From Diphasiastrum complanatum (lineage: Eukaryota > Streptophyta > Lycopodiopsida > Lycopodiales > Lycopodiaceae), in contig CM055100.1 in NCBI GenBank assembly GCA_029204225.1, positions 66,916,472 through 66,980,471 on the forward strand: a stretch of DNA of 64,000 nucleotides. Reading direction: 5' to 3'. A program made the position numbers and the translations under genes. Shown here piece by piece: positions 6,329-39,195 of the stretch (the stretch's first letter is position 1; each line of letters opens with the position of its first letter). Under the pieces are notes generated by a model that was given only the letters and a program-made list of their open reading frames with translations, ran no database searches and was not told the DNA's origin.

Positions 6329-7159
6329 TGTGCAAAATGTACAAAAAGGACCAAGAGTGGATCCTAATCTGATCCTCAAGAGGGATTGGTTGTCAAATTA
6401 CTTGATCTATCAATCTACTGCAGATCAAGATCAATCTAGATCAATTCTAGACACAAAATCCTAACAAGAACAATCATTAATTGAAGGTAAGTGTACTTTA
6501 TGGTTTCACACGTGTGAAACACTGTCTGAGTACGAACTCCAACCTGAAAATTAAGTACACATTGATAGAACCTCAAAACAATCAAGACAAATGTAGACAA
6601 ATGGAGAGAATCACTCAAAATTGCTTCCAAAACCAAGAGTGGTGTCTCACATTGATTATGGCCAAATGTGGCTCTATATATTCAATAAGTGGGAGCTCGT
6701 GGTACTGATCATCCCTTTGATCCCACATGTGTGAAGGTGCTTTGTCATATGATGATTCATCATGCAAAACTGACACTTTCAAAACCTTCTATTTTGAGCA
6801 CTTTTGGTCCATTTTTCTTCTATATGGAGATCTACTTGAAAATCTTCTAGAAGTCAAAATTCGTCTACTTCAGCTTATTTCACACATGTGAACTGTCCTC
6901 TACACATGGGATGTGACACCTAACTAAAGGATGTGGCTCATGCAATCAATAGATTGATGCCATGTGTCATATGTCTAGAAAACTAGTTTTTGGCTTTTTT
7001 AGCCACTAGAACTTGAATTAAATCATATGTACAACCTATATGATTATGGTACATGACAAGTACACTATTTCCACACGTGGGAACAGGCTCCACACATGTG
7101 TAATCATCCTATATACAAGATTTTTGGCCTCTACCAAGCTTATTTTTGCATTTTTCACA
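6329..7159 (-). repeat. Copia-A LTR A1 (831 bp)
   Basis: Bounded by TGTGCAAAATGTAC and GCATTTTTCACA, the same ends as A3. It holds the 16-bp perfect palindrome TTTCACACGTGTGAAA at 6504-6519 and further CACATGTG-type sites near 6725, 6885, 7075 and 7095. Confidence 0.9.
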
Positions 7160-7178
7160 CTCCTCAAAAATCTAGCTT
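7160..7178 (-). other. Copia-A polypurine tract (internal 1)
   Basis: The minus strand reads a purine-rich block ending TTTTTGAGGAG directly before the LTR start TGTG. This is the expected plus-strand primer position. Confidence 0.75.
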
Positions 7179-7296
7179 GGTAAATCTAGCTTGATGGAAA
7201 ACATGATGATCTTGAACTTGACTCCATGGGCTGAATTGGTTTTTTCTAGTTCAAAAGGTGTGAAGATCAGCCAATGAGCTTTATGTTGATCTGAAA

Positions 7297-8529
7297 TCAC
7301 CATATCCATGATAGTGCTTCTTTGATGTTGACATCTTTGATGAGCTTGAGATCTTTGCACCATCCTACCACCTCCAAAATTGATTCCTTCCAATTTTCAT
7401 GTAGATGCTTGACTTTGAGGTTTGCTCCTTCTTCATGTGCATGCTCTTCTTTGATGAAAATCCGAGACCTCCATGTCTCATAATGATCACAACAAGTATG
7501 ACCATTCAATATGCACTTCCTGTGATTATCAAGATTACTTATGCTAGAAACATAAGTCCAAAAATCACCACAACTTGGCATGATTTCTCCAATATTGAAA
7601 TCAAAAGGTATTTCCATCTCAATAAGGCTAACTACTTGCTTATGGATATAAGTGTCCACTTTGGATGCTTCACTTATTCTCATAAGAAGTTTACAACTTG
7701 CCTTTAAGATTGAAAACTTACAATTTTCATCTTTATGAATGAACACATCATTCATGATCTTATTGAAACCAAAAGATCCTACATTATGAAGATATTTCCA
7801 TTACCTTGACTTCATAACTAATGTAAGCTTACAAGGAAAACATATTTTGCTATCTTTTAAGGCATCATACTCAACTAGTATTGCCTTAATCCACCTTTGA
7901 GATACAAAAATCTCTTCAAAGCAAAATGGTTCTTCATAAGTTGACATGATAGCATAAATGAAACTATTTTCATTTAGTGATTGCTCCTTATTCTTGATTG
8001 ATTTCTCTTGGATAATAACAATAAGTTTGAACTTGTCCAAAGTTCCAAGCAAAATACTTTCCAAGGACATAAAATAAATCCAAGTTACTTTCATGAAAGT
8101 GACATCTATCTTTGCATCTTGAACCAAACAATGTACTTCCAAATGAAAAATTTCAAAAGATTTGACATGTGTTGTGATGGACTCTTGAAGACAAACCTTG
8201 CAAGTCCTTGTGAGACTCCAAGCCTCATTCACCTTTCTAGAAAGGAAACACCTTTCCTTGGACTTGTCCTTCTTGTATTTGCATTTTGAACTGGAAGCTC
8301 CATCCTTCACCTCGACCCCCTTGCTTTGGTTCTCCTTGGATGGACTGGTCTTCTTTTTGTAGCATCTTGAGAGAAAATATCCTCCCTTGCCACAAAGGTT
8401 GCACTCAAGATCCTTTCTTTCCTTCACTAGGATGCCACCTATTGATGCCATGTGAATAAAAACCTGTGATATGATTCTACAAATGTAATTTGTGACTTTC
8501 AAGAGACTAGATTTGAACATCTTCAACAA
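7297..8529 (-). pseudogene. Copia-A chimeric ORF, copy 1 (one nonsense mutation)
   Basis: This is the same ORF as 11769-13001, but a TAA at 7801-7803 (AAA in the sister copy) splits it into 242-residue and 152-residue parts. The first part carries the altered zinc knuckle CNLCGKGGYFLSRC, in which the usual His is Tyr, and an RT-like stretch (QRWIKAILVEYDALKD). The second part matches no domain I know. The two copies otherwise agree over their length, so the break is recent. It is not expected to be a functional gag or pol. Confidence 0.75.
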
Positions 8530-10111
8530 TCTAGAAGGATCTACAAAAGATCTAGCTCACAAACCTAAGCATCAATCTTCACAGTAAAGACTAGTCACTT
8601 GGAAACTTTGCTTTGATCACTAAGACAAAAGCACACAATCTTTGAATCAAATCACTGAAAAAATCAGATCCAATCTCCTATTGGACTCATCAAATACCAA
8701 TGACTCTTTCTTTTGAAAGTTGAAATGGATATGAAAAAGATTTGACACTTAGATTTTCCTTTTCACTTGACTAGTTCTCTCAACACTTGAGATTCTTGAA
8801 CAAAAGATGGATTTGTTTCCAACACATGAAAATCAAACTTAATCACTTCTTTTGGACTCACTCTTGACCCAAATAATCTCACCCTTGAGATTTAGAATGA
8901 ATTTGATTTGATGAAAACAAACTATACCACCAATTTTTCACAAAGCTTAAAAATTAGACAACTAGAGATTCACAAAGATCTCAACCATACATGAATACTC
9001 AAATATGGACTCCTCCTCATTCTAGACATCAAACGGGATCACAAATTGACCCTCACACTTTCACAAAGAAAGTTGAATAGAACTAATTTGAGTTTCATAC
9101 ATACTATGTCAATTTTTGCTCAACAAATTGAATTCAATCATTCCTATTGGATTCCACCAATTACTCTACCTTTTAAGACTTGGAATGAAATTCAAAATCA
9201 AAAGTTGTGATTTTTCTCACTAAGATATTGTGCTTCAAAGAGCTAATGCCACTTAGAAAGATTTGATCACCTAGGAGAATACAAATTCTCCACCAATAAC
9301 AACACAAAATGAGCTTCTAGATCTTGCCTTCTACAAAGGAAGGAACTCATAGAAAATTGGATCTCTCTCTACACATTTGCCATAGACACCTTAATGACTC
9401 TTTTCAAACCTCACAAACACTCAAACAAATTGAGTAGGATTGAATAATGTGACTTGGATCTCAATCTCTTTTCTAGAACTTTCAATTGAAGCCAATCTAT
9501 GTCAAATTCTACAAAAGATTTGCATAGATGCTCTATATGCACTAGAAACTCTCAAAGGTTTCACTTGGAGGACAGATCCAAGGATGTTTTCTAGCAAATT
9601 GATGCTTCTAAACTTGACCCTATCACTCTTGAACAAATCTAGAGCGATGGTACAATGGATTTCAACCTCTCACCTTCAATATCACTCCTTAATCTATGAT
9701 TTTTAGCAAAATCTCTCTCAACTTCAACATACACTCAAAAAATCAGAGATAATCAATTAATGCACCTAATTCAAGCTTCAAATTTAATTTCTTGGCTGAT
9801 CTAATCCAAGAACTAATCAAGGGATTAGATTCTCTATAGAAAATGCTTAATTTTGCACTAAAAATCACTCAAATTGGGTATGTGAGTCAAATTCTACAAT
9901 CTTTTGAAATTTCTCGATCAAAACTGGAGATGTATGGCCTCACACGTGTGAAAAGGGTTCCTACAGCCCACAACAAGATTTGGACCAAAAATTTTGAGGA
10001 TAGCTATGAAATCCAACTCGCTACACAAAATTTTACTAGTGTCCAAAAAACTGCTAATTTTGGCTTTGATTTGGATTAACCCTATCAATTTCAACAAAAA
10101 CTCTTGTACTA
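8530..10111 (-). other. Copia-A internal 1 leader
   Basis: About 1.6 kb between the PBS and the ORF with no coding pattern on either strand; the short ORFs at 9440-9706 and 9843-10079 have no recognisable features. It contains CACACGTGTG at 9941-9950. The segment 8608-10052 is absent from internal 2. Confidence 0.6.
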
Positions 10112-10124: not shown

Positions 10125-11631
10125 TGTGCAAAAAGTACAAAAAGGACCAAGAGTGGATCCTAATATGATCCTCAAGAGGGATTGGTTGTCAGATTACTTG
10201 ATCTATCAATCTAGATCAATTATAGACACAAAATCCTAACAAGAACAATCATTAATTGAAGGTAAGTGTACTTTGTGAAGAATTGCCAAAAATTGACAAA
10301 TCTAGCTTGATCAAAAACCATGTAAAATAGTGTAAATTGTGTACACAAGTGGGTCCCACACATGTGAGGCCATGATGCCACATGGGAAACCCATCCTAAT
10401 GTAGGTTAGGTCAAGTCAAGAGAGTTGGTCATGTCTATTTGGTGGTCATCCCTACTTTATAGGACCTACACCTAAGTTTAAGGTGAAAATTTGACCAACT
10501 AACTACCTACCAAGCATAATTCTAGGAAATAGACTAGGGTTTCATTTTAGGTCAAGGAGAGTGAGTTAACTTCCTTATTACATGTTGGAAATCCACCTAA
10601 CTTCAAGAAGGAAGTCGAATTTGCTATGTATTCCCTCTCTCCATAGTGAGAAGATAGAAAATTTTTGGAGCTCATTGGCAATCTCAAGCTAGTTCACTAT
10701 GTACATTGAGTTTTTGTGATCCAAATGAAACCAAATCAATTTATACTTGTTTCTCAGGTTGAAGGCCGTACTACAGCCTGTAGTACACACGTGTGGGCTC
10801 GGATTTCAATGTTTATCAATGCTTTTGATTGTTAATGCTTGTTGTTTGTCAAATTGCCAATCTAGATCAATTTTTTTTGTGTCTAGTTTTTTTGATAGAT
10901 TGTTAAGCAAGCATCCAATCACTCTTGTAGATCTTTTGTAGATCCATTTATGGTCCTAAAGTACAGTACTTTCACATACTACATGGTTTCACACGTGTGA
11001 AACACTGTCTGAGTACGGACTCCAACCTGAAAATTAAGTACACATTGATAGAACCTCAAAACAATCAAGACAAATGTAGACAAATGGAGAGAATCACTCA
11101 AAATTGCTTCCAAAACCAAGAGTGGTGTCTCACATTGATTATGGCCAAATGTGGCTCTATATATTCAATAAGTGAGAGCTCGTGGTACTGATCATCCCTT
11201 TGATCCCACATGTGTGAAGGTGCTTTGTCATATGATGATTCATCATGCAAAACTGACTTGGACAAAACCTTCTATTTTGAGCACTTTTGGTCCATTTTTC
11301 TTCTATATGGAGATCTACTTGAAAATCTTCTAGAAGTCAAAATTTGTCTACTTCAGCTTATTCCACACATGTGAGCTGTCCTCTACACATGGGATGTGAC
11401 ACCTAACTAAAGGATGTGGCTCATGCAATCAATAGATTGATGCAATGAGTCATATGTCTAGAAAACTAGTTTTTGGCTTTTTTAGCCACTAGAACTTGAA
11501 TTAAATCATATGTACAACCTATATGATTATGGTACATGACAACCACAAGTGGGAACAGGCTCCACACATGTGTAATCATCCTATATACAAGATTTTTGGC
11601 CTCTACCAAGCTTATTTTTGCATGTTTCACA
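10125..11631 (-). repeat. Copia-A LTR A2, interrupted by a solo LTR
   Basis: Starts TGTGCAAAAAGTAC and ends GTTTCACA. The LTR is split by 703 bp of copia-B solo LTR plus a 5-bp duplication; without these it is 799 bp. The right part carries CACACGTGTG at 10990-10999. Confidence 0.9.
10274..10976 (+). mobile_element. Copia-B solo LTR (703 bp) nested in LTR A2
   Basis: Bounded by TGTGAAGAATTGCC and GTACTTTCACA, matching in reverse orientation the full copia-B LTR at 30065-30766. It is flanked by TACTT (10269-10273) and TACTA (10977-10981), a 5-bp target duplication with one mismatch. No internal sequence remains, so this is a solo LTR from LTR-LTR recombination. It carries CACACGTGTG at 10786-10795. 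Confidence 0.92.
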
Positions 11632-11650
11632 CTCCTCAAAAATCTAGCTT
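11632..11650 (-). other. Copia-A polypurine tract (internal 2)
   Basis: The same purine-rich block as at 7160, directly beside the end of LTR A2. Confidence 0.75.
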
Positions 11651-11768
11651 GGTAAATCTAGCTTGATGGAAAACATGATGATCTTGAACTTGACTCCATG
11701 GGCTGAATTGGTTTTTTCAGGCTCAAAAGGTGTGAAGATCAGCCAATGAGCTTTATGTTGATCTGAAA

Positions 11769-13001
11769 TCACCATATCCATGATAGTGCTTCTTTGATGT
11801 TGACATCTTTGATGAGCTTGAGATCTTTGCACCATCCTACCACCTCCAAAATTGAGTCCTTCCAATTTTCATGTAGATGCTTGACTTTGAGGCTTGCTCC
11901 TTCTTCATGTGCATGCTCTTCTTTGATGAAAATCCGAGACCTCCATGTCTCATAATGATCACAACAAGTATGACCATTCAATATGCACTTCCTGTGATTA
12001 TCAAGATTACTTATGCTACAAACATAAGTCAAAAAATCACCACAACTTGGCATGATTTTTCCAATATTGAAATCAAAAGGTATTTCCATCTCAATAAGGC
12101 TAACTACTTGCTTATGGATATAAGTGTCCACTTTGGATGCTTCACTTATTCTCATAAGAAGTTTACAACTTGCCTTTAAGATTGAAAACTTACAATTTTC
12201 ATCTTTATGAATGAACACATCATTCATGATCTTATTGAAACCAAAAGATCCTACATTATGAAGATATTTCCATTTCCTTGACTTCATAACTAATGTAAGC
12301 TTACAAGGAAAACATATTTTGCTATCTTTTAAGGCATCATACTCAACTAGTATTGCCTTAATCCACCTTTGAGATACAAAAATCTCTTCAAAGCAAAATG
12401 GTTCTTCATAAGTTGACATGATAGCATAAATGAAACTATTTTCATTTAGTGATTGCTCCTTATTCTTGATTGATTTCTCTTGGATAATAACAATAAGTTT
12501 GAGCTTGTCCAAAGTTCCAAGCAAAATACTTTCCAAGGACATAAAATAAATCCAAGTTACTTTCATGAAAGTGACATCTATCTTTGCATCTTGAACCAAA
12601 CAATGTACTTCCAAATGAAAAATTTCAAAAGATTTGACATGTGTTGCGATGGACTCTTGAAGACAAACCTTGCAAGTCCTTGTGAGACTCCAAGCCTCAT
12701 TCACCTTTCCAGAAAGGAAACACCTTTCCTTGGACTTGTCCTTCTTGTATTTGCATTTTGAACTTGAAGCTCCATCCTTCACCTCGGCCCCCTTGCTTTG
12801 GTTCTCCTTGGATGGATTGGTCTTCTTTTTGTAGCATCTTGAGAAAAAATATCCTCCCTTGCCACAAAGGTTGCACTCAGGATCCTTTCTTTCCTTCACT
12901 AGGATGCCACCTATTGATGCCATGTGAATAAAAACCTGTGATATGATTCTACAAATGTAATTTGTGACTTTCAAGAGACTAGATTTGAACATCTTCAACA
13001 A
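11769..13001 (-). CDS. Copia-A chimeric ORF, copy 2 (410 residues, open)
   Basis: An intact 410-residue frame from an ATG at 12999-13001. Residues 7-35 (SSLLKVTNYICRI and following) resemble the late part of the UBN2-type gag seen in copia-C (ASNYVLRVKDIQRELACIG). Residues 43-56 form a knuckle CX2CX4YX4C, where Tyr replaces the zinc-binding His. Roughly residues 190-260 (QRWIKAILVEYDALKD) resemble the start of a copia RT; protease and integrase are missing. The last 130 residues match nothing I know. I infer a fusion of pol remnants kept open by chance or by weak selection. No catalytic residues are present. Confidence 0.6.
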   Translation of the reverse strand: MLKMFKSSLLKVTNYICRIISQVFIHMASIGGILVKERKDPECNLCGKGGYFFSRCYKKKTNPSKENQSKGAEVKDGASSSKCKYKKDKSKERCFLSGKVNEAWSLTRTCKVCLQESIATHVKSFEIFHLEVHCLVQDAKIDVTFMKVTWIYFMSLESILLGTLDKLKLIVIIQEKSIKNKEQSLNENSFIYAIMSTYEEPFCFEEIFVSQRWIKAILVEYDALKDSKICFPCKLTLVMKSRKWKYLHNVGSFGFNKIMNDVFIHKDENCKFSILKASCKLLMRISEASKVDTYIHKQVVSLIEMEIPFDFNIGKIMPSCGDFLTYVCSISNLDNHRKCILNGHTCCDHYETWRSRIFIKEEHAHEEGASLKVKHLHENWKDSILEVVGWCKDLKLIKDVNIKEALSWIW

Positions 13002-13074
13002 TCTAGAAGGATCTACAAAAGATCTAGCTCACAAACCTAAGACTCAATCTTCACAGTAAAGACTAGTCACTTGG

Positions 13075-13084
13075 AAACTACTAA
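13075..13084. other. Deletion junction in copia-A internal 2
   Basis: Relative to internal 1, 1445 bp (8608-10052) are missing here. Both breakpoints carry AAACT, which is retained once at 13075-13079. The two internals differ in length by exactly this amount (2965 and 1520 bp). Confidence 0.85.

Positions 13085-14493: not shown

Positions 14494-15519
<1,026 letters not shown>

Positions 15520-17356: not shown

Positions 17357-17450
<94 letters not shown>
17357..17450 (+). repeat. (TC)47 microsatellite
   Basis: An uninterrupted dinucleotide repeat. The Arg/Glu ORF on the minus strand is a translation of it. Confidence 0.97.
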
Positions 17451-26656: not shown

Positions 26657-26892
26657 TAGGTAGCTAGTTGGTCAAATTTTCACCTTAAACTTAGGTGTAG
26701 GTCCTATAAAGTAGGGATGACCACCAAATAGACATGACCAACTCTCTTGACTTGACCTAACCTACATTAGGATGGGTTTCCCATGTGGCATCATGGCCTC
26801 ACATGTGTGGGACCCACTTGTGTACACAATTTACACTATTCTACATGGTTTTTGATCAAGCTAGATTTGCCAATTTTTGGCAATTCTTCACA
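26657..26892 (-). repeat. Copia-B 3' LTR, truncated
   Basis: Matches the right end of 30065-30766 with only two differences (CACTATTC versus CATTATTT). It starts abruptly at TAGGTAGCTAG; the rest has been lost or replaced by 26463-26656 sequence. Confidence 0.88.
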
Positions 26893-34690: not shown

Positions 34691-35112
34691 ATTACATAGC
34701 CAAACATTAAGCATGATGACATCAGAATGATAATTTGTCGCAAACAGCTAGATTGATTGTCAGTCGCGAATTAGTCGCGAAAGGCAAGACTAAATGTTAG
34801 TCACGAACAACTAGACTAATAATAATTCGCTAAGAACAAACTACCAGATTAAGCAATAAGAGACTCAGACAGAATGTAGAAAAGCATAGCAATATTGAAA
34901 CAAATCTGAACACAGAACAAACAGAGCTTTAATCAGATTAAGTATAGCAAAATATACAGGTCAATAATGCAGGTGAGCACAAGACAATAGCGGACGAAAC
35001 TACTTGCTTCACAAAGCTAATCCAATCTGAAAAAGGAGTAAACCTACTACTGACAATACAAAGAATCGATGCGCAAAAGCATCTACTTCGTCTATCTCTG
35101 ATAAGCTTCTGA
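34691..35112 (-). other. Leader of a second copia-J copy
   Basis: 34870-35112 matches 38330-38540, the leader of copia-J, at high identity. A degenerate PBS (minus strand TAGTATCAGAAGC, near 35100-35112) sits at its right end. No gag follows to the left. Confidence 0.65.
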
Positions 35113-35643
35113 TACTATTATATTTTTCACACTCTACTGGATACGTAGATGGTATCCAATATATATACATAATGTTACAGGTGTGCAAATGAAGAAGGTA
35201 CAAAGTGGATGTGCTGTCTGTGGGAGATCGTGGGTGGCTATTGTCGTTGTCGAATCTGATTGCACAGTGCATAGGATGAGCTTGAGAAGCCCACGACATC
35301 AGCCTTCGCTGAAATGAACGTTGATGAAAATACAAAAAATACGACACTCTGACAAATGCCTTAAAATTTGATTTATTGGGTACCTTTGTTTTTTCATTAG
35401 GGAACCTTTGACATTTGTAGGGTAGTGTCGTCTTTTTCACCTGTCACAAATCACGTGTAAAAAACAGTGTCTTCTTTTTCGCCTGTGGAAATTTACTTGT
35501 ATTTATGCAGATAGTCGCGTTTTTTGCCTATCTTATTTTACATGTAAATATGCAGACTGTGCGACAACATGAGTAAAAATGTAGTAGCATGAATGGAGGC
35601 AGATTAACATAGGATTTAGGAGAGTAAAGGAGATAATCCAACA
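35113..35643 (-). repeat. Copia-J LTR, with a PBS on one side and a PPT on the other
   Basis: It ends ATCCAACA at 35643 with a PPT beyond it, and begins near 35113 beside a PBS. It contains the repeated words GTCGTCTTTTTC and TTTACTTGTA, also found in the LTR region 60230-60730. The left edge lacks a clean TG. About 180 bp next to the PBS match 38542-38740. Confidence 0.65.
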
Positions 35644-35660
35644 CCCCTCCTTAATTTGGA
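35644..35660 (-). other. Copia-J polypurine tract
   Basis: The minus strand reads AAATTAAGGAGGGG directly before TGTTGGATTATC. Confidence 0.8.
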
Positions 35661-36834
35661 TCCATGAATGCCTTGATCTTCAGACTAAGCAATGCACAAA
35701 ACTTGTTGTGTGCATTAACACTTAATGCCTTTTTAAATATATCTGCAACCATGTCCTGCGTTCTACAGTATGTTAAGCTCACCTCCTTGTTGAGAACCTT
35801 GCCCCTGATCTGGTGATATCTGATTTCAATGTGCTTACTCCTAGAGTGAAATCTAGGATTGGCCGATAAGGCAATAGCACTCTAACTATCACAAAATATA
35901 ATTGTGGGGTTGTACTGATACAAATTAATGTCTGACAATAAATTTCTCAACCAAAACGCTTCTTTAATAGATTGAGAAGCAGCAATGTATTCTGCTTCTA
36001 TAGAAAAAAGAGCGATAGAGGTTTGCTTACGATTGTTCCATGAGATAGGACCGTCGTTGAAGAAGAATGTAAATCTAGATGTGGACTTACGATTGTCTAC
36101 ATCTCCTCCCCAGCTTGCATCAGAATATCCACTGAGCTGATGAAGATTGTCGTTGTTAACATCTCCATAGCAGATGCACTGGTCCATGGTAGCTCGAATA
36201 TATCTCATGACTCTTATGAGAGCCTTCCAATGGGTAATGTCAAGATTAGCCATATATTGGCTGAGTGAGCTTACAACAAAAGAGATGTCAGGTCTTGTAT
36301 AGACCATTGCATACATGAGAGATTCAAGTATTGATCAATAAGGATATTCTCTCATCTGCTCCTCTTCCTGGTTGGTCTAGGAACATTGACAAATGCAGGC
36401 TTGGATCCATCGATGAGTGAGCTAACTTACAATTCATTAGATTGTATCTGTTAAGAACATTGTGAAGATACTTTGTTGAGTGATATAGGTCAGTCATCTG
36501 GCTATGTCTCTGTGGATCTGAATGCCTAAACAGAAGTGAGCTTCACCCAGATCAGTCATGTCGAACTCAAAAAACAGCATCTGTTTAGAATCCTTGACCA
36601 AATTGGTATTGTTGCTGAAAAGCAACATATCATCCACGTATACGGTGATGATAATGAAGGATTGGTGCACCAACTTAGAATAAACGTTGCAATCAGCAGT
36701 GCTTGGTTTAAAACCTTGCTTGATGAGGAATGTGTTGATCTTCTCAAACCAAGTTCTGGCAGAGTGTTTCAAGCCATAGAGTGCTTTATAAAGTTCACAA
36801 ACAAAGTGCTCATTACTAACAGCTTGTTTCACTG
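35661..36834 (-). pseudogene. Copia-J second RT module and RNase H
   Basis: Minus strand: ELYKALYGLKHSARTWFEKI, the catalytic YVDDMLLFSNNTNLVKDSKQ, then DLGEAHFCLGIQIHRD. After a frameshift come MYAMVYTRPDISFVVSSLSQ, the RNase H block SGYSDASWGGDVDNRKSTSR, then EAEYIAASQSIKEAFWLRNL. The region below 35880 reads into the end of RNase H and the PPT. This module keeps the full YVDD motif. Its first nine residues derive from a gypsy-K LTR fragment. A frameshift near 36490 and a stop near 36340 break it. Confidence 0.88.
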
Positions 36835-36890
36835 GAGTATCGTGTATCCAAGACTAGGAGTATACTGTATCCTATGTACTGGTCATGGAC
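36805..36890 (-). repeat. Gypsy-K LTR 5'-end fragment between two RT modules
   Basis: The minus strand begins TGTTATGTCCATGACC and continues with CTCCTAGTCTTGGATA and CCAGTGAAACAAG. It tracks the first 85 bp of the LTR at 15520. It has no second end. Confidence 0.75.
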
Positions 36891-37990
36891 ATAACACATG
36901 GTAGTTCGAATATACCTCATGACTCTTATGAGAGCCTTCCAATGGATAATGCCAAGATTAGCCATAAATTGGCTGAGTGAGCTTACTGCAATGGAAATGT
37001 CAGGTCTTGTACAGACCATTGCATACATGAGAGACCCAAGTATCGATTGATAATGATACTCTCTCATCTGCTCATCTTCTTGCTTGGTCTGAGGACATTG
37101 GTCCCTTGACAAACGTAGGCCTGGATCCATCGGTGAGTGAACTAACTTACAGTTCATAAGATTATATCTGTCAAGAACATTGTGAAGATACCTTTGTTGA
37201 GTAATATAAATTATTCGTCCCACTCTGTCTCGGTAGATTTGAATGCCCAGACAAAAGTGAGCTTCGCCTAGATCAATCATGTCGAACTCAGAAAACAACA
37301 TCTGTTTAGCATCCTTAACCAACATATCATCCACATATAGCATGTTAATAATGAAGGATTGTTGCACTGACTTGAAATACACGTTGCAATCGGCAATGCT
37401 TGGCTTGAAACCTTGTTGGATGAGGAATGTGTTGATCATCTGAAACCAAGCTCTGGCAGATTGTTTCAAGCCATAAAGTGCCTTATGGAATTTACAAACA
37501 TGATTCTTCATACCTTCTAGAACGTATCCTTTGGGATAGATCATGTAGATGTCTTCTTGTATAACTCCATTCAGATAAGCTGTTTGCACATCAAGTTGAT
37601 GCACTTCGAGGTCGACAACTACAACATATGATAGGAGGGCTCAGATTGACGATTAATGCTTGACTACTGGATTGAAAGCCTCAATGTAGTCGACGTTGGA
37701 GATTTGAGTGAATCCTCATGCTACCAGTCTCATCTTCCTTCGATTAATTGCTCCATTGGCATTGTATTTGATCTTGAAGATCCATTTGCAATCAATGATA
37801 TTGTAGCCAATAGGAGCTTCGACTAGTGACCATGTTTGGTTCTTGATCAGAGAGGAATACTCTCTATCTATAGCTTCTCTTCAGAGATCAGAGTTTGGTT
37901 GGCTGAGTGCCTCTTCGACTGTTGTCGGTTCTTGTATCAAGAGACATGCAGACTCATGAGTATACCTTGTGGGCTGTGTGTGCACTCAGC
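36891..37990 (-). pseudogene. Copia-J first RT module
   Basis: Minus strand from about 37900: EPTTVEEALSQPNSDL, EYSSLIKNQTWSLVEAPIG, CKWIFKIKYNANGAINRRKM, then the 262-residue frame 37604-36816 with HQLDVQTAYLNGVIQEDIYM, HKALYGLKQSARAWFQMINT, YVDDM, DLGEAHFCLGIQIYRD, and PDISIAVSSLSQFMANLG. Directly after YVDDM eight residues present in the second module (LLFSNNTN) are missing in frame, so the active-site loop is probably damaged. RNase H is not reached. The frame instead ends in the gypsy-K LTR fragment. Two stops lie in the N-terminal part. Confidence 0.88.
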
Positions 37991-38340
37991 TTGATCTTCT
38001 GGCCAACTGTCATATGAGCTTGGCAAGCTTGTAAGCAGTTGCATCACTAAGTCTTGATCATCTATGATAGATCCGACAACGGCCATTTGCTTCAGCAGGT
38101 TTTTGAATTGGTTGATGTGATTCTGCAGGGAATCACCATTCGCTATCTTGAGGGAGTAAATTTTTTTTTCTGAGATGTAGCTTCAAAGCTATATCATACA
38201 CTTTGTATAGTGTGATCAAGATGTCCCAGACTTCTTTGGATGTCTAGGCCCTGGATACATGGCCGATCCGAGTATCTGAAATGTTAAGGATGATCAGCAC
38301 AAAAGCCTTTCCATCCTTATCAAGCTATAGACACAAATCT
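37991..38340 (-). pseudogene. Copia-J gag fragment fused to RT
   Basis: The minus strand reads DKDGKAFVLIILNISDTRIG, TSKEVWDILITLYKVYDIAL, NGDSLQNHINQFKNLLKQM and DDQDLVMQLLTSLPSSYDSW. It then passes directly to an RT N-terminal linker. This is the same gag as in copia-I (60900-61583). Zinc knuckle, protease and integrase have been deleted. Confidence 0.8.
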
Positions 38341-38541
38341 GTACGCAAAACAAACAAAGCTGAAATCAAATTAAGTATAGTAAAATATACAGGTCAATAA
38401 TGCAGGTGAACACAAGACAATAGCGGATGAAATTGCGTGCTTCACAAAGCTAATGCAATCTGAAAAAGGAATAAACCTATTACTGACAATACAAAGAATC
38501 GATGCGCAAAAGCATCTACTTTGTCTATCTTTGATAAGCTT
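38341..38541 (-). other. Copia-J leader with mutated PBS
   Basis: Matches 34870-35112. The PBS position reads CTTCTGACGATATTA, compared with CTTCTGATACTATTA in the other copy. Confidence 0.65.
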
Positions 38542-38740
38542 CTGACGATATTATATTTTTCACACTCTACTGAATACGCAGATGGTATCCAATATATATA
38601 CATAATGTTATAGATGTGCAGATGAAGAAGGTACAAAGTGGATGTGCTGTCTGTGGGAGATTGTGGGTGGCTGCTGTCATTATCAAATATGATTGCACAA
38701 TGCATAGGATGAGCGTGAGAAGGCCGCGACATCAGCCTAG
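38542..38740 (-). repeat. Copia-J 5' LTR, truncated
   Basis: About 200 bp matching 35114-35310, through TATCCAATATATATACATAA and GTGGATGTGCTGTCTGTGGG. The similarity ends at GACATCAGCCT. Confidence 0.75.
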
Positions 38741-38804: not shown

Positions 38805-38809
38805 ATAGT
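38805..38809. repeat. TRIM target site duplication ATAGT, left
   Basis: ATAGT directly before the LTR1 start; repeated exactly at 39191-39195. Confidence 0.9.
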
Positions 38810-38840
38810 TGTGAAAAGTTTTTACACTTGGTGTGTGCGG

Positions 38841-38911
38841 TCGCGGGCTAGGGATTGAACCTAGGACCTCCCCCATTCCGGTGGGGTGCTCTACCATTGA
38901 GCTACCCGTCC
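38841..38911 (-). other. tRNA-like sequence in TRIM LTR1
   Basis: The minus strand has a perfect A-box match (TAGCTCAATGG) and a perfect B-box match (GGTTCAATCCC), 43 bases apart start to start, the normal tRNA spacing. It folds as a D-arm (GCTC/GAGC), an anticodon-like arm (CCCCA/TGGGG) and a perfect T-arm (CTAGG, loop TTCAATC, CCTAG). The acceptor stem pairs only at its four inner positions, and the anticodon-like loop has six bases, so it is not a working tRNA gene. I cannot assign the isotype. Confidence 0.85.
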
Positions 38912-38964
38912 ATTTGTGTTCCAACAATGTTGTGCAAGGGCTATAGCCTCGACACTTTCTAACA

Positions 38965-38975
38965 CTCCCCCTCAA
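38965..38975 (-). other. TRIM polypurine tract
   Basis: TTGAGGGGGAG on the minus strand, directly before the LTR1 terminus. Confidence 0.85.
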
Positions 38976-39020
38976 GGCATAGCCCTTTTTAGCTACCGCC
39001 CACCTAGACCACACCAACAA

Positions 39021-39037
39021 CCATGGCTCTGATACCA
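39021..39037 (-). other. TRIM primer binding site
   Basis: TGGTATCAGAGCCATGG on the minus strand abuts LTR2. At least the first 14 bases match the initiator tRNA-Met 3' end as I know it. Confidence 0.9.
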
Positions 39038-39068
39038 TGTGAAAAGCTTTTACACTTGGTGTGTGTGG

Positions 39069-39137
39069 TCGGGCTAAGGATTGAACCTAGGACCTCCCCC
39101 ATTCTGGTGGGGTGCTCTACCATTGAGCTACCCATCC
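39069..39137 (-). other. tRNA-like sequence in TRIM LTR2
   Basis: The same structure as in LTR1. The A box (TAGCTCAATGG) is unchanged. The last B-box position region reads GGTTCAATCCT, and the T-stem keeps five pairs with one G-T wobble. The anticodon-like loop differs (CCAGAA instead of CCGGAA). Confidence 0.82.
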
Positions 39138-39195
39138 ATTTGTGTTCCAAGAGTATTGTGCAAGGGCTATAGCCTTGATACTTTCTAACAATAGT

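Follow-up and report, generated by a model that had tools for sequence, protein, structure and literature searches.

The 64-kb stretch of DNA analysed here (hereafter, the window; 64,000 nucleotides of Diphasiastrum complanatum contig CM055100.1) carries, at positions 38810-39190, a complete terminal-repeat retrotransposon in miniature (TRIM) of 381 bp, each of whose long terminal repeats (LTRs) contains a tRNA-like block. Since the primer-binding site (PBS, TGGTATCAGAGC, 39026-39037) and the polypurine tract (PPT, GAGGGGGAG, 38965-38973) both lie on the minus strand, the sense strand of the element is the minus strand, and all parts of the element named below are on that strand. The PBS abuts the 153-bp 5′ LTR (39038-39190), the PPT abuts the 155-bp 3′ LTR (38810-38964), and the internal region that runs from PBS to PPT (38965-39037, 73 bp) is gene-free, being too short to hold a gene. 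A target duplication, ATAGT, is present on both sides (38805-38809 and 39191-39195). The coordinates of this structure in the original prediction, which had been made from the sequence letters without database searches, were correct throughout; the PBS, as stated there, presumably matches the initiator tRNA-Met. Alignment of the two LTRs gives 10 substitutions and one 2-nt indel, i.e., a divergence of about 6.5%, where about 7% had been claimed. Three of the substitutions and the indel fall in the tRNA-like block and seven substitutions fall outside it, and therefore the LTR pair of the window element is, taken alone, uninformative on constraint.

To characterize the block, the whole window was searched on both strands with 4227 Rfam families. 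The tRNA family (RF00005, gathering cut-off 29 bits) matched the 5′ LTR at 39137-39066 with 47.5 bits and the 3′ LTR at 38908-38844 with 43.4 bits, in both cases on the element's sense strand, which is also that of the PBS and PPT (E-values 4.8e-7 and 6.5e-6). These were the sole matches at the gathering threshold in the window, and no 5S rRNA match was returned there at that threshold. The block occupies 39066-39137 in the 5′ LTR (LTR positions 54-125) and 38838-38911 in the 3′ LTR, where it carries a 2-nt insertion on the 3′ side of the acceptor stem. The A box, TAGCTCAATGG, is identical in the two LTRs (39120-39130 and 38894-38904), as had been claimed. The B box reads GGTTCAATCCC in the 3′ LTR (38851-38861) and GGTTCAATCCT in the 5′ LTR (39077-39087). 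Consequently, the prediction of A and B boxes 43 bases apart stands for the A box of both LTRs and for the distance between box starts in the 5′ LTR, with the qualification that the B box of the 5′ LTR ends in a T that departs from the B-box motif. A 20-mer spanning the A box, allowed up to three mismatches, matches the window only in the two LTRs, exactly in both, against an expectation of 0.01. That the block resembles a tRNA by chance, or is a tRNA gene lying beside an unrelated repeat, is extremely improbable: the Rfam E-values and the 20-mer expectation reject chance, the block recurs inside LTRs at dispersed loci genome-wide, and nothing was found in favour of either.

The block is a tRNA-like sequence and not a tRNA gene, because of the insertion in the 3′ LTR, because ARAGORN (run with the bacterial code setting) predicted no tRNA gene in the window, and because RNAfold returned no cloverleaf for the two blocks (z of -0.48 and -0.03). 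A functional nuclear tRNA gene was likewise rejected, given the ARAGORN result and mispairs in the acceptor and anticodon stems. Short interspersed elements (SINEs) with a tRNA head have no LTRs, have target duplications of variable length, and end in a tail. The element in the window differs from them by its LTRs, PBS, PPT and 5-bp duplication, and its identification as such a SINE was rejected since it is built as LTR, internal region and LTR within a 5-bp duplication. What it shares with them is a degenerate tRNA head containing an A box and a B box, and these SINEs, which Kojima 2024 (PMC10886601) also discusses, are a possible source of the block.

The window element is one copy of a dispersed family, termed family 1 below. 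In the source genome, in which the window lies (G000; 1.74 Gb, 5176 contigs, those used here being denoted C1 to C3), a search with the whole element gave 775 candidates, the best 40 of which were scored and yielded 43 matches of 91-100% identity, so that the sampled copies are those nearest the window element. Loci gathered with three queries (the whole element, the block alone, and the stretch between the two blocks) amounted to 62 distinct loci holding 64 LTR-internal-LTR units, 49 of them with full LTRs. Removing nine loci (11 units) as twins because their flanks matched left 38 units, to which two arrays contribute two and three. Among these 38, the 5-bp duplication is exact in 18, has one mismatch in 4 and is neither in 16; nine have an edge that adjoins the PPT or PBS of another unit and are tandem or rearranged copies. 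LTR divergence ranges from 1.3% to 12.4%. Genome-wide, 130 exact LTR-internal-LTR junctions of family 1 were counted, with none for the reversed-pattern control, and tandem LTR-internal arrays occur at loci L020, L079/L080 and L086. Scans of viral contigs and genome contigs gave no match, as expected for a plant repeat.

Two local features of family 1 should be mentioned. A 5-Mb region, G000:C1:94614258-99678794, contains 15 of the 100 family-1 units listed (of 130), none of which matches the A-box, variable-loop or B-box probes; perhaps a copy that had lost its block, or in which the block had changed, was amplified locally. Furthermore, two near-identical loci, L035 and L050, contain at about 1448-2250 a family-1 LTR with its PBS, then some 60 bp of foreign sequence and a purine tract, beyond which, as judged by eye, lie an apparent LTR and the gag start of a different Copia. 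Considered as a helper, this arrangement was rejected and, again by eye, read as a chimera or nested insertion.

We then asked how often the block is retained in family 1. With a query that excludes the block, 20 of 30 fetched loci were used (L061 being the window copy itself and nine being set aside as twins or repeats, with the twins L066 and L073 both retained). These gave 49 LTR matches, of which 42 span the block once seven truncated ones are set aside, a filter that itself favours LTRs carrying the block. By strict definition, the A box is present in 38 of the 42, the B box in 31 and both in 28, and in the other 14 the block is altered at one or a few positions or carries a small deletion. 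When twins are kept and all 29 loci are counted, 64 of 76 matches span the block, with A boxes in 57, B boxes in 47 and both in 42.

The block is also found in the LTRs of a second family. The pattern GCTCAATGGTAGAGC, followed after 20-45 nt by GGTTCAA, has 98 matches in the genome (reversed control, 0) and revealed a second sequence class, from which, together with odd classes, ten stretches were fetched (L091-L100). One of them, L096, is a complete family-2 element, with LTRs of 144 bp, an internal region of 115 bp, and TAGTG on both sides. Another five (L091, L093, L094, L097 and L098) contain family-2 LTRs adjoining internal sequence; L092 holds a solo LTR flanked by two copies of TTCTA; L095 and L099 are related but rearranged; and L100 belongs to family 1. 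Rfam recognises a tRNA in all ten stretches, with best scores of 31.6-48.6 bits for the nine of family-2 type, and it returned 29 tRNA hits over the 20 loci of relatives given to it, at least one per locus.

Family 2 has 408 exact LTR-internal-LTR junctions genome-wide, and sequences of the block recur upstream of a PBS. Specifically, GGTTCGAATCC, GGTTCAAATCC and GGTTCAATCC lie 20-50 nt upstream of a PBS at 487, 70 (a few of them family 1) and 120 places, respectively, and a 16-mer with the A-box core lies 65-90 nt upstream of it at 525 places; the reversed control was 0 for the junctions and for each of these patterns. One identical spacing between the 16-mer and the PBS is seen in 82 of the 100 places listed (of 525), and GGTAGAGC alone occurs at 711 places in the genome. 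Among 79 family-2 units on C1-C3, found by junctions that lie outside the block, 62 have the exact B box, 53 the exact A-box 16-mer (a count that misses most copies with an AATGG variant), 43 both and 7 neither. Junctions of family 2 that are 259-260 bp apart, four at G000:C3:51363998-51364911 and three at G000:C2:78731297-78731951, mark tandem LTR-internal arrays.

To compare the families, we aligned 20 sampled family-1 LTRs with seven family-2 LTRs (140 pairs) and scored them against shuffles. The block has 83% identity between families, with a z of 20.1, whereas the LTR flanks have a z of 1.3 upstream and -0.6 downstream; the upstream part reaches 81% over the few columns that align when end gaps are free, as the LTR tips resemble each other, and its score is barely above that of the shuffles. 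Outside the block, BLAST of a family-1 LTR against the family-2 stretches gave no match. The pattern with which the family-2 LTRs were retrieved requires the D arm and GGTTCAA, and 67 of 76 family-1 LTRs were usable, namely those with an intact AGCTCA; such selection of rows raises identity at the selected places and cannot account for the unlike flanks.

The pairing of the block was also compared between families. In either family, most pairs of the D, anticodon and T stems are standard. Two pairs, acceptor pair 7 (G-C vs A-T) and anticodon pair 1 (C-G vs T-A), are changed on both sides between families with pairing kept. Such changes are what a role of the RNA itself might leave, in which RNase P or RNase Z would cleave the tRNA-like part of a pol II (RNA polymerase II) transcript, or that part would help in packaging or transport. 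However, 60 of 67 family-1 blocks have an A.A mismatch at acceptor pair 3, only 3 of 7 family-2 blocks form acceptor pair 1, and anticodon pair 5 is unpaired in both families. In addition, neither a fold preference (RNAfold) nor an ARAGORN tRNA is seen, so that we regard an RNA role of this kind as very unlikely. Judged from its sequence, the block resembles a retained or re-captured promoter module more than a working tRNA.

Whether the module was retained or re-captured bears on another explanation, in which the two families independently captured the same kind of tRNA or SINE head, such that the likeness would reflect repeated recruitment rather than long constraint or exchange. The borders of similarity are sharp, the block is 72 nt long in one family and 73 nt in the other with different lengths of the anticodon loop and variable arm, and multiple origins of the Helenus TRIMs are argued in the available text of Kojima 2024 (PMC10886601). 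On the other hand, the PBS, the style of the PPT and the LTR tips are also alike between families, and no SINE was seen around the ten fetched loci (of 98 matches to the head pattern) and the family-1 loci read, the tRNA genes and SINEs of the genome not having been surveyed. A search with the 72-bp block, in which 40 of 920 candidates were scored, led to 30 fetched loci that all carry family-1 LTRs, and it is therefore no test of a source SINE or parent tRNA. Altogether, we consider two captures plausible, while leaning somewhat against them. They concern the origin of the block and are compatible with its use by RNA polymerase III (pol III).

The motifs of the element follow one another as they do in a plant pol III gene. 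In the 5′ LTR, a TATA-like CTATAG (39167-39172) with a putative promoter role lies 30-35 nt upstream of the block, and a CAA triplet (39140-39142), possibly the pol III start, lies 3-5 nt upstream of it; these are followed by the A box, the B box and TTTT, a minimal pol III terminator (39042-39045, with its counterpart in the 3′ LTR at 38814-38817). According to the available text of PMC11700998, TATA motifs occur upstream of plant tRNA genes, CAA is found within 10 nt upstream in about 36-45% of angiosperm tRNA genes, and a downstream T run is found in 67-72% of them. At such frequencies, the motifs are supportive and not diagnostic. The window element and the family-2 LTRs examined have a CAA no more than 10 nt upstream of the block. 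In family 1, with twins removed, a TTTT stands downstream of the block in 37 of 38 5′ LTRs and 36 of 38 3′ LTRs, and none occurs within any of the 38 5′-LTR blocks or 38 internal regions.

The explanation that we consider best overall, and probably correct, is that of a Helenus-type TRIM whose LTR block serves as a pol III promoter and which is mobilised by Copia elements. In such a mechanism, TFIIIC would bind the A box and the B box in the 5′ LTR, and pol III would start just upstream of the block, near the CAA 3-5 nt away, and read through the TTTT of the 5′ LTR, the 73-bp internal region and the 3′ LTR up to the TTTT there. The resulting RNA would be about 330 nt long, with an R region of about 100 nt. 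Copia reverse transcriptase and integrase would then copy the RNA, with priming at the PBS and PPT, and integrate the copy, producing a 5-bp duplication. We infer mobilisation by Copia from the PBS, the PPT and the 5-bp duplications; the window itself contains Copia reverse transcriptase and gag genes, integrase domains, and further elements with the same PBS motif. The anatomy, the dispersal of a family with target duplications and the block in the LTRs of two families are established by these data, and use of the block by pol III, the start and stop sites named here, and Copia as the helper are considered most likely. More tentatively, the block may be a portable module that the TRIM families of this plant keep or exchange while other LTR parts turn over, with hundreds of dispersed LTRs acting as TFIIIC and pol III sites and feeding a mixed system in which pol III makes the RNA and Copia enzymes, which are themselves products of pol II transcripts, copy that RNA; we regard this broader proposal as possible but rather doubtful.

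Several observations weigh against a pol III promoter in the LTR. Termination is the weak point: the TTTT already present in the 5′ LTR would end part of the transcription before the internal region, so that a full template needs read-through, and in family 2 no TTTT was found in the seven LTRs and three internal regions checked, which would leave pol III without a stop of this kind within family-2 elements. Nor is the block better conserved than its surroundings within family 1. Between the LTRs of one element, divergence is 0.0507 in the block, 0.0294 upstream and 0.0342 downstream; between elements, the corresponding values are 0.059, 0.0485 and 0.0368, in a sample that includes loci retrieved with the block itself. 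This lack of excess conservation goes against selection on the block, so far as such copies can show. Hence the conservation check suggested with the original prediction is negative within family 1 and strongly positive between families. Absence of the boxes from most LTRs elsewhere would likewise have counted against that prediction. The strict counts above mostly do not show such absence, but of the 26 family-1 units listed for C1 and C2 only 6 are matched by an exact block probe near the PBS, and 15 of the 20 misses cluster at C1:94.6-99.7 Mb. Locus L068 is a probe miss whose block Rfam still recognises at 36.9 bits, and therefore a miss is no proof of block loss. Finally, the blocks lack a predicted cloverleaf, as described above, and no autonomous partner with the same LTR was seen among the loci fetched, a search aimed at helpers not having been made.

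The lack of excess conservation in family 1, the TTTT in its 5′ LTR, the family-2 pieces without TTTT and the cluster of family-1 units without probe matches are in turn consistent with a passive relic: a tRNA-headed SINE or tRNA gene inserted in the LTR of an ancestral TRIM would have been copied along since as a functionless block, with pol II transcribing the element from upstream sequence. Yet neutral decay would not be expected to leave the relic as the most conserved part of the LTR between families, unless the two families acquired their blocks independently, and many family-2 units keep both boxes. We consequently consider it unlikely that the block is only a passenger.

The design of the element has published parallels. 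The available text of Kojima 2024 (PMC10886601) describes Helenus as TRIMs with a tRNA-derived LTR sequence and proposes the name TRIMp3 for Helenus, Ajax and Cassandra. It gives Helenus a length of 311-1263 bp, no genes and, in plants and fungi, a 5-bp target duplication; most Helenus families are reported there to have either conflicting tRNA isotypes or no functional tRNA according to tRNAscan-SE; a Copia helper is suggested for fungal Helenus; and Selaginella moellendorffii is the only plant for which that text gives a characterised family (PMC10886601). The window element is alike in its 381 bp with two LTRs, PBS, PPT and gene-free 73-bp internal region, in its RF00005 match in both LTRs, and in the 5-bp duplication ATAGT. 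In addition, TAGCTCAATGG and GGTTCAATCC, present in both LTRs, correspond to Helenus box A (TRGCY, YGG) and box B (GGTTC). It differs in dimensions, the S. moellendorffii family having an LTR of 120 bp and an internal region of 85 bp, vs 153/73 and 144/about 115 bp in the two families here, a comparison made by description only (PMC10886601).

Cassandra TRIMs, in the available texts of PMC7215508 and PMC10853983, are also alike in design. The Cassandra search formula in PMC7215508 contains the PBS motif TGGTATCAGAGC, and tandem LTR-internal arrays like those seen here are reported there, while in PMC10853983 the Cassandra promoter block has neat borders against unlike LTR flanks, as between families 1 and 2, together with modular reshuffling. 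The difference is that the LTR block is derived from 5S rRNA in Cassandra and matches the Rfam tRNA family here. Similarly, Ajax, the nemertean TRIMs of PMC10886601, has a small-RNA promoter in its LTRs but, by the available description, one that is 5S-derived and in an animal host. The proposal of a Cassandra-like design built on a tRNA thus fits the sequence. A published family with this structure, which would have counted against the prediction, exists in Helenus (PMC10886601). Besides that paper, a literature search by title and abstract found no other description of plant TRIMs with tRNA-like LTRs. The window element is of Helenus type, with a design already published, and family 2 adds to that type and is not a new kind.

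As for the surroundings of the element, a Copia remnant lies on the minus strand at 34893-38738, between 413-bp repeats that are 90.6% alike, and 71 bp separate its 5′ side from the TRIM. The nearer LTR-like repeat (38326-38738, with its twin at 34893-35305) ends before the TRIM insertion, and therefore provides no empty site for comparison. Elsewhere in the window, two stretches at 6494-8607 and 10977-13079 are 97.8% identical; a 419-aa reading frame (11769-13028) in the second has no Pfam match and is split in two in the first. A 236-bp repeat recurs at about 99% at 26657 and 30531 and, inverted, at 10274, and the stretches and this repeat probably represent a young LTR element family. Long TC microsatellites are found at 14514-14630 and 17357-17450.

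These results extend Helenus from one published plant host to another plant genome, with at least two families comprising 130 and 408 exact units. The tRNA annotation of such a genome may gather many false tRNA hits that are in fact borne by LTRs. At the same time, the large number of copies makes it possible to test whether pol III really uses a tRNA-derived LTR promoter, for which the available text of the 2024 paper (PMC10886601) leaves pol III transcription unproven.
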